In this document: one piece after another, positions 24,309-36,006 of the stretch
Layout: the number at the start of each line of letters is the position of its first letter
How positions within the stretch are numbered: the stretch's first letter is position 1
Origin: Candidatus Saccharimonadota bacterium
Lineage (GTDB): Bacteria > Patescibacteriota > Saccharimonadia > Saccharimonadales > Saccharimonadaceae
DNA length: 64,000 bases
NCBI GenBank assembly: GCA_017531585.1
Contig: JAFXKT010000002.1
Location: forward strand, 258,203 to 322,202
Reading direction: 5' to 3'
The notes under the pieces: model-generated
The model's database searches: none
Seen by the model: only the letters and a program-made list of their open reading frames with translations
Told to the model about the DNA's origin: nothing
Program-made: the position numbers and the translations under genes

Positions 24309-24505
24309 TGCATTTTGAAGTCCTATCTGTTATAATACTCCCAGTTACCAAAGACAGCGGCGGCTGAGCAATCAGCTTAATCATGCCGCCGAGGATAAAT
24401 ATTCTTATATATTCTTGGTGACGCGCTATATCTAGCGCTTTTTAAGTGCTAAATAGCAATTAACAATCTGGCTAAAACGAATAAACCAAAAGGAGATTTC
24501 TATCT
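24309..24505 (+). promoter_or_regulatory. rplJ promoter and L10 leader
   Basis: A TTGCAT...TATAAT promoter (about 24309 and 24332) is followed by a leader with ACCAAAGACAGC, GGCGGC...GCCGCC and TTGGTG, the layout of the ribosomal protein L10 leader. The L10-L7/L12 complex binds this RNA to limit its own synthesis. AAAGGAG precedes rplJ. Confidence 0.8.
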
Positions 24506-33492: not shown

Positions 33493-34098
33493 ATGTTACC
33501 ATCCGCCCTCAATGACCTAATCGAATGCCTTGGCAGGCTACCCGGAGTTGGCCCACGTACTGCCGAGCGCTACGCATATTTCTTACTCAAGAACGACCGG
33601 GTTATTTCCAAAAACCTCGCAAACGCCCTAGATAAGCTTCACGACAGCGTCAAGACTTGTCCAAAGACCTTCGCGCTTATTAGCGAAGAAAACGAGCTAT
33701 CTCCACTTTATGATAGTCCAGACAGAGACAAATCTACCATCCTAGTAGTAGAAGAACCGCTAGATATTTATGCCATCGAGCATACTAAGTCTTATCATGG
33801 CACCTATCATGTCCTTGGCGGCGCAATCTCCCCAATGGATGGAATTACGGCAGACCAGTTGCACATCAAAGAGTTAATCGACCGCGTCGAGGAAGATTCC
33901 GTAAAAGAAATCATTATCGCCACAAACCCATCAGTCGAGGGCGAATCCACAGCGGTATTGCTCGAGAAATTACTCCACGAAAAATACCCAGAACTCCAAA
34001 TCACACGTCTAGCTCGTGGTCTACCTCTTGGTATTAGTCTAGAATACGCCGACCAAATCACGCTCGCATCGGCACTAAACAACCGTACAAAAATCTAG
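33493..34098 (+). CDS. recR: Recombination mediator RecR, zinc finger missing
   Basis: 201 aa, usual length about 198. Helix-hairpin-helix (LIECLGRLPGVGPRTAERYA) and Toprim domain (TILVVEEPLDIYAIE, GGAISPMDGI, IATNPSVEGESTA) are intact. The four-Cys zinc finger normally at about 55-75 is reduced to one Cys (SVKTCPKTFALISEENELS), with spacing kept. TATAAT ends six bases before the ATG (leaderless). Confidence 0.93.
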   Translation: MLPSALNDLIECLGRLPGVGPRTAERYAYFLLKNDRVISKNLANALDKLHDSVKTCPKTFALISEENELSPLYDSPDRDKSTILVVEEPLDIYAIEHTKSYHGTYHVLGGAISPMDGITADQLHIKELIDRVEEDSVKEIIIATNPSVEGESTAVLLEKLLHEKYPELQITRLARGLPLGISLEYADQITLASALNNRTKI

Positions 34099-34132
34099 CG
34101 CGTAGTTCCGCCCCAAAACAAAGCGCTTATCT

Positions 34133-34252
34133 TTGACCAGGGCGCCACAAAATGGTATAAATACCCAATCAAGGGTGGTGTTCTTTAGTATTTTTGTGAG
34201 TTTTTCTAGAGAGGCCACCTTTGAAATACTTTTCATTTCGGAGGAAATTACC
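34133..34252 (+). promoter_or_regulatory. Promoter and leader of the flotillin-like gene
   Basis: TTGACC at 34133 and TATAAA at 34156 (17-bp spacer). The leader (about 85 nt) can fold through AAGGGTGG / CCACCTT. CGGAGGAAATT precedes the ATG. Confidence 0.7.
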
Positions 34253-35944
34253 ATGGAGCTGTCCACACTTATCCCGATCATTATCGGCGTAGTTATCGCA
34301 ATCGTAGTTATCGTTCTGCTGTTCGCAATGATCAAAACAGCAAACGCTAACGAGGCCCTTGTTGTCTCCGGCGTAGGAGCAACCGACAAAAACGGCAATC
34401 CCACAATCAAGACTGCAGGCGGCAGAGTCGTTATTCCTTTCATTCAGAAAGCGAAATACTTCGACCTCTGTGTTCGTACTGCGAAAGTCACCAGTGACGT
34501 TACCAAGACTCAAACTGGTGTGCCGATTCAGATAGACTGAGCTGTCGCGTACAGCCCGGATACATCCAGCGAAGATAGCCTTCAAAAAGCAGTCAGAAAC
34601 TTTCTCGACAAGGACGAGGAAGCGCTTAAGCGCGTAATTCTCGACGTCGTTTCTGGTGGTGTTCGTGCCGTTATCGCAAAGATGACACCAGAAGAAGTCA
34701 TGAACGGAAAAGACAAGCTCGACGATCAGGTAAAAGATTCTATTGCTGCTCAGATGAAAGATTTGGGCTTTAATGCAATTCTTTCCATTCATGAAGTCGA
34801 GGATGCTCGTGACGGAACGTATTACCGCGACCTCGCAGCAAAAGACCGCGAGACCATTCATATGAATGCGGAAAACATCGCAGCAGAAGCCGCGCAGTCC
34901 ATGCGCGAAAAGCGCGCACAGACCGACCTCGCCGCACAGCAGGCCGAGCTCGACGCGCAGGTCGCAATCGCAGAGCGACAGCGTGATACTGACGTCAAGA
35001 AAGCTCAGTTCCAAGCCGAAACCGCCAGAGAACAAGCTAAGTCCGAAATGGCTGGCGAGCTCGAACAGCAGGCTATCAACCAGGAACTCGAACAGAAGAA
35101 GGGTGCCGTTGCCGTAATGCAAGCCGAACAGGCAAACCTTGCCGCACTAAAACAGCAGGAAGTTGCTGTCACCCAGGCCGAAACCGCAAAGAAAACTTCT
35201 ATTATCGACGCTCAGGCAGAAGCAGCTCGCAAGAAAGAGCAGGCAACTGGTGAAGCCGAAGCACAGAAAGTTTCTGCAGCAGGTCAGGCTGAAGCCAAAA
35301 AGCTCAGCGCCGCCGGCGAAGCCGAAGCTGCCGCAATTCGTAAAACCAAGGAAGCAACCGCTACTGCCGAAGCTCGCAAGACCGAGGCAGAAGGTGCTGC
35401 AACTGCTCGCAAGACCGAAGCCGAAGCCGAAGCTGCCGCTATTAAGGTAAAAGCAGAAGCCGACGCAACCTCTATTCGTGCAACCGGCGAAGCCGAAGCT
35501 GCCGCTATTGCCGCCAAAGGTAAAGCAGAAGCTGAAGCTATCGAAGCAAAGGGTAAGGCCGAAGCTGAAGCTGCAAGAGCTCTCTCTGATGCTCAGGCAG
35601 CCAACGACAAGGTTAACTTCGAACTCAAGAAAATCGAAATCGAACAGTCTACCCGAGTACAGATTGCAACCAACGTTGCGACCGTCATGGCCGAAGTCGG
35701 CAAAAACGCCAAGTTCTACGATTTTGGCGGCGGTAGCAAAACTGAAGGCGGCGGAGATCTCCTTACAAGTGTCATTGGCCGCATCCCTCAGCTCTTTGCT
35801 CAGGCAGATGCACAGAATCAGGCCCTCAACGAAGAAGCCCTTACTGAAACCGTAAAGAAGCTCGTCGGCGCAATTGCTGACCCTATCAAGAGTAGCGGAA
35901 GCGTAGATGACACCAAAGCAATCCAGGACACACCTGAAACATAA
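34253..35944 (+). CDS. Flotillin-like SPFH protein with in-frame TGA at codon 96
   Basis: If the TGA at 34538-34540 is read through, one frame gives 563 codons: a membrane segment (about 5-27), an SPFH domain (about 30-190), and a long Ala/Glu/Lys-rich coiled coil with many EAEA-type repeats, the order of flotillins, which organise membrane domains. The frame and the SPFH homology continue directly across the TGA (GVPIQID-stop-AVAYSPDTSSEDSLQ), with no shift. A 5-bp hairpin GCTGT-CGCGT-ACAGC starts at the next base. No ribosome site precedes the first downstream ATG (34682). TGA is a normal stop elsewhere, so this is a nonsense mutation, a sequence error, or read-through. Orphan-class codon use and private promoter and terminator. 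Confidence 0.75.
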
Positions 35945-35975
35945 ACTCTTAGGCTCAATAAAACTCACAAAAGGC

Positions 35976-36006
35976 AAAAATCCCCCGATCGCTCGGGGGA
36001 TTTTCT
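35976..36006. terminator. Bidirectional hairpin terminator
   Basis: TCCCCCGA / TCGGGGGA stem flanked by A-run and T-run between convergent genes. Confidence 0.9.

Follow-up and report, generated by a model that had tools for sequence, protein, structure and literature searches.

A TGA within a flotillin-like gene of a gut Saccharibacteria genome: probably a recent nonsense substitution, with programmed read-through unsupported

The 64,000-nucleotide stretch of Saccharibacteria DNA analysed here (the window) carries a flotillin-like (SPFH/Band_7) gene at positions 34253-35944 of the plus strand, which is interrupted by one in-frame TGA at 34538-34540; a short inverted repeat begins at the next base. 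Is this TGA a stop that has truncated the gene, an error in the assembled sequence, or a site of read-through that makes both a short and a long protein? The explanation that we favour, with a probability of roughly 0.8, is that an accessory flotillin-like gene of gut Saccharibacteria was truncated by one recent nonsense substitution in which the hairpin is not involved, and that the gene is being lost or the stop is segregating.

The gene starts at ATG 34253, preceded by a good ribosome site (GGAGGAAATTACC), and runs for 95 codons to the TGA, after which 467 open codons lead to a TAA ending at 35944. The 5' fragment (34253-34540, plus strand) encodes the N-terminal membrane segment together with the first third of the Band_7/SPFH domain, and the undecayed downstream part (34541-35944, plus strand) encodes the remainder of the domain and an Ala/Glu-rich coiled-coil tail. 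A six-frame search of the genome itself reported the Band_7 match with one TGA inside. The stop splits this match mid-domain, with profile positions 2-63 before it and 72-174 after it in an unchanged frame, as the sequence-only reading had claimed in stating that SPFH homology crosses the TGA without a shift. Its companion claim, that no early alternative start with a ribosome site follows, also holds: the first in-frame ATG, GTG or TTG is ATG 34682, 141 bases past the TGA, with no ribosome site discernible by eye. Translation restart was rejected on these grounds; initiation at ATG 34682 would in any case leave out the membrane segment and the beginning of the SPFH domain.

The family assignment was made with intact relatives, one of which matches Band_7 (PF01145) over its length and aligns by sequence with the solved chains of flotillin-1 and -2 across some 350 residues (E 2.9e-30). 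Against the NCBIfam FloT model (NF058507), the relative L010, scored as a 513-residue fragment, matched over 367 residues with 132.2 bits, the equivalog cut-off being 700. The encoded protein combines a Band_7/SPFH domain, which in the window is divided by the TGA, with a long Ala/Glu-rich coiled coil and an N-terminal membrane segment. Judged by these matches, the protein is flotillin-like and not FloT proper. The genome also encodes an intact second SPFH protein, which is nearer to HflK/HflC.

Relatives of the gene were used to read the residue at codon 96. Public genomes yielded 23 loci, which belong to Saccharibacteria or to assemblies bearing labels such as Clostridiales or Ruminococcaceae and come mainly from rumen and gut; further homologues were added from the genus and the family, and a scan of viral contigs found none. 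Tryptophan occupies the stop position in 28 of the 28 distinct relatives aligned, and the codon is TGG in every relative read, including the further family matches. Since TGG stands in all relatives, the TGA lies one base from their codon and is, on this alignment, a single-base nonsense substitution found in this genome alone. The relatives are intact and show no decay, so that the disabling lesion is found in this lineage and the gene is whole elsewhere. The earlier proposal that a TGG-to-TGA change is the simplest cause of the interruption is thus supported, both by the relatives and by the decoding of TGA described below.

Within the genus, a flotillin-like match was found in six of 45 genomes. 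In one of them (G014), the gene occupies the same place as in the window, with recR on one side and glyA on the other, and the identity of its flotillin part (82–87%) is like that of the neighbouring recR (87%) and glyA (85%), which fits vertical descent of the gene in the two genomes. In the closest relative found (G035), whose recR protein is 100% identical and whose flanking DNA is 94–96% identical, a block corresponding to 34098-35974 of the plus strand is missing from the recR-glyA slot (L124), and recR leads straight into a shared terminator; this terminator-like hairpin is located at 35976-36005 in the window, between the flotillin-like gene and glyA. The slot is filled by a different ORF of 290 codons in G011, where the flanks are about 90% identical, and in other members of the genus it is empty or holds other ORFs, including small ones. 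The content of the slot thus differs among close relatives (window 34098-35974; L124, L125, L127, L128) and illustrates on a small scale how genes turn over in Saccharibacteria. By this distribution, the flotillin-like gene is accessory and dispensable in the genus. It should be noted that genes 76–83% identical to that of the window (L012-L015, L017, L018, L020-L024, L026-L030) are also present in assemblies from rumen and gut whose labels read Clostridiales, Clostridia, Ruminococcaceae or Mageeibacillus, and that these copies are closer to the window's gene than some copies in its own genus. They represent either gene transfer between phyla or misbinned contigs.

We further examined how TGA is decoded in this genome. 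Release factor RF2 is encoded, scoring above its curated cut-off. TGA terminates 18 of the 281 ORFs of at least 150 amino acids in 384 kb of sequence, and two of the 56 long ORFs in the window itself, where it is a rare terminator. The TGA of the flotillin-like gene is the only candidate for an internal TGA between coding-like stretches in these 384 kb, which comprise the window and 16 stretches of 20 kb, or about 38% of the genome, further internal TGAs being possible beyond them. Among the 43 tRNA genes found, the sole tRNA-Trp has a CCA anticodon, an anticodon stem of 5 bp and a G at position 24. The classical UGA suppressor tRNA-Trp is of the D-arm type, which the G at position 24 does not fit. 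Another, short-stem type of tRNA has been described for UGA decoding (PMC13092985). Given the 5-bp stem and the G at position 24, neither a suppressor nor a short-stem tRNA-Trp was retained as an explanation. A code in which UGA means Trp was likewise rejected, on the presence of RF2, the lack of a tRNA-Trp(UCA) or a short-stem CCA form, and the lone internal TGA in the 384 kb. TGA is therefore a stop in this genome, though a rarely used one, and the earlier statement to this effect is confirmed by RF2, by the normal tRNA-Trp(CCA) and by the ORFs that end in TGA.

Selenocysteine insertion was also rejected: in a search of the genome with the SelB profile, the best match remained below the cut-off, as expected of general elongation-factor relatives, and the relatives of the gene carry Trp at the position. 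In the same genome, a short elongation-factor-like stretch (L046, C4:382538-382801) aligns to positions 179-264 of the SelB profile; it contains one internal TAA and is possibly a gene fragment.

The inverted repeat GCTGT-CGCGT-ACAGC, reported earlier as beginning immediately after the TGA, is indeed present at 34541-34555 of the plus strand. Programmed read-through or recoding directed by this hairpin, with insertion of Trp or selenocysteine and production of a short and a long form, would be suggested by a 5-bp stem that starts at the base following the stop. The five codons of the repeat (GCT GTC GCG TAC AGC), however, encode Ala-Val-Ala-Tyr-Ser, a peptide conserved in the family. The same Watson–Crick stem adjoins TGG in three homologues (L014, L015, L025) and is absent from most relatives. 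Stems of this size formed entirely of Watson–Crick pairs begin at about 1% of the positions in the window, including 11 places in the flotillin-like gene. Folding of the RNA around the TGA is not clearly better than that of shuffled sequences (z-scores of −0.84 and −1.28), and in a 50-base fold the stem lies outside the minimum-energy structure. No known RNA element from Rfam was detected at the stop site; elsewhere in the window, a ribosomal protein L10 leader (RF00557) was recognized at 24330-24453. Because the hairpin is present in TGG homologues and folding is weak, we reject it as a recoding signal and regard it as a by-product of codon choice, incidental to the stop.

Further evidence against a programmed event is that the stop occurs in no relative, so that stop and stimulator are not conserved together, that no SelB was found above the cut-off, and that a protein ending at the TGA would stop partway through the SPFH domain, so that the short form is not domain-sized. 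With the gene also dispensable in the genus, hairpin-directed read-through, which the sequence-only reading had entertained, does not survive the comparison, and we consider its chances next to negligible. The case cautions that a hairpin beside an internal stop can arise from conserved codons; looking for such a hairpin in stop-free homologues settles the question.

Selection after the stop was estimated by pairwise counts and by three-way differences with outgroups. The 467 codons following the TGA contain no extra stops and no frameshifts. With the stop excluded, otherwise invariant residues are altered at four positions in the window copy and at five in its intact sister L034. Nonsynonymous/synonymous counts after the stop against five outgroups are 35/61, 35/53, 37/45, 39/59 and 38/65 for the window, and 42/67, 42/76, 41/79, 42/67 and 42/68 for L034. 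The corresponding ratios are 0.57–0.82 for the window versus 0.52–0.63 for the sister, giving no sign of the relaxed selection after the stop that would mark a pseudogene; a young lesion would not be expected to show any. The lack of relaxation suggests a lesion that is young relative to the split from L034, not fixed, or partly suppressed, the bound on age being rough with synonymous sites near saturation at the window–L034 distance. Since the downstream part is not decayed, the gene, if dead, probably died recently.

The constraint after the stop, which resembles that of intact relatives, also bears on leaky, unprogrammed read-through, whereby tRNA-Trp(CCA) would misread UGA at a low rate, restore the native Trp and yield a little full-length protein, so that downstream selection persists. 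According to one survey, many bacterial genes with in-frame stops retain dN/dS below 1, indicating residual purifying selection (PMC7918605), and the TGA is followed by G, a base that made termination less efficient in E. coli reporters, where UGA was mostly read as Trp (PMC11126739). Any bacterium may plausibly misread UGA as Trp at a basal level, which would bring back the native residue without a special signal; together with the G after the stop, such misreading implies by analogy that a trace of full-length flotillin-like protein may be made. However, a recent origin of the lesion accounts for the same constraint, the genus can do without the gene and the tRNA-Trp has no suppressor features, and we therefore find leaky read-through very unlikely as the explanation of this locus. 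It is likewise highly improbable that the TGA has become a stable allele whose low but useful rate of decoding as Trp gives this reduced-genome organism a little full-length protein, the stop serving to dim expression.

A nonsense substitution confined to one genome may also reflect an error in assembly or consensus, or the capture of a minority allele, with TGG as the true majority sequence. This would agree with the undecayed downstream part, with the single-base nature of the change and with another isolated nonsense elsewhere in the genome. The latter is a TAG produced by a single-base change in an alpha/beta hydrolase-like gene (C5:371626-372381, corresponding to L100:11626-12381, minus strand), at a site that codes for Glu in two close relatives (L110, L111), the frame being otherwise intact. 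The lone TAG in place of Glu indicates that nonsense alleles in this genome are not special to TGA and Trp. On the other hand, none of the 163 ORFs shared with G035 is split by a frameshift, and the TAG of the hydrolase-like gene is the only interruption judged genuine among them; other stops from the tblastn comparisons were dismissed by frame and position, since each either fell in an antisense or shadow frame or preceded a later start codon. Together with an assembly of six contigs that is 99.6% complete, this suggests a good consensus, and we regard an error or minority allele as unlikely.

We thus return to the recent nonsense substitution as the preferred explanation. In the proposed scenario, codon 96 of the accessory flotillin-like gene would have changed recently from TGG to TGA, and translation would be expected to end there, giving a 95-residue fragment with the membrane segment and part of the SPFH domain, presumably lacking scaffold function. 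The absence of the gene from the closest relative, G035, suggests that it is on its way out in the lineage; alternatively, the stop may be carried by only part of the population. The data establish the stop itself, the TGG of all relatives, the use of TGA as a true stop, the dispensability of the gene in the genus and the lack of decay; loss of function, the age of the lesion and the fate of the gene are what we infer here. We judge the locus to be an ordinary young pseudogene or a segregating nonsense allele, one instance of accessory gene loss with small mechanistic weight.

Comparison with known systems places the locus as follows. The intact relative resembles bacterial FloT-type flotillin/SPFH proteins in matching Band_7, the flotillin-1 and -2 chains and the FloT profile, but misses the FloT equivalog cut-off, and the reading frame in the window is broken by the TGA. 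A Trp at the UGA position and membership of the same broad phylum are shared with the Patescibacteriota lineage JAKLIH01, in which UGA has been reassigned to Trp (PMC13092985), whereas here TGA terminates, RF2 is encoded and the 384 kb yielded no second internal TGA. A further parallel is with in-frame stops interpreted as population polymorphisms (Belinky et al. 2021, PMC7918605); that set required the same stop in at least two species and the present one occurs in one genome only, but the two have in common a single nonsense in an otherwise conserved frame and an expected short persistence. Because that survey already described in-frame stops as frequent in bacteria, with purifying selection persisting in residual form, the present finding is an ordinary one, of a kind already known.
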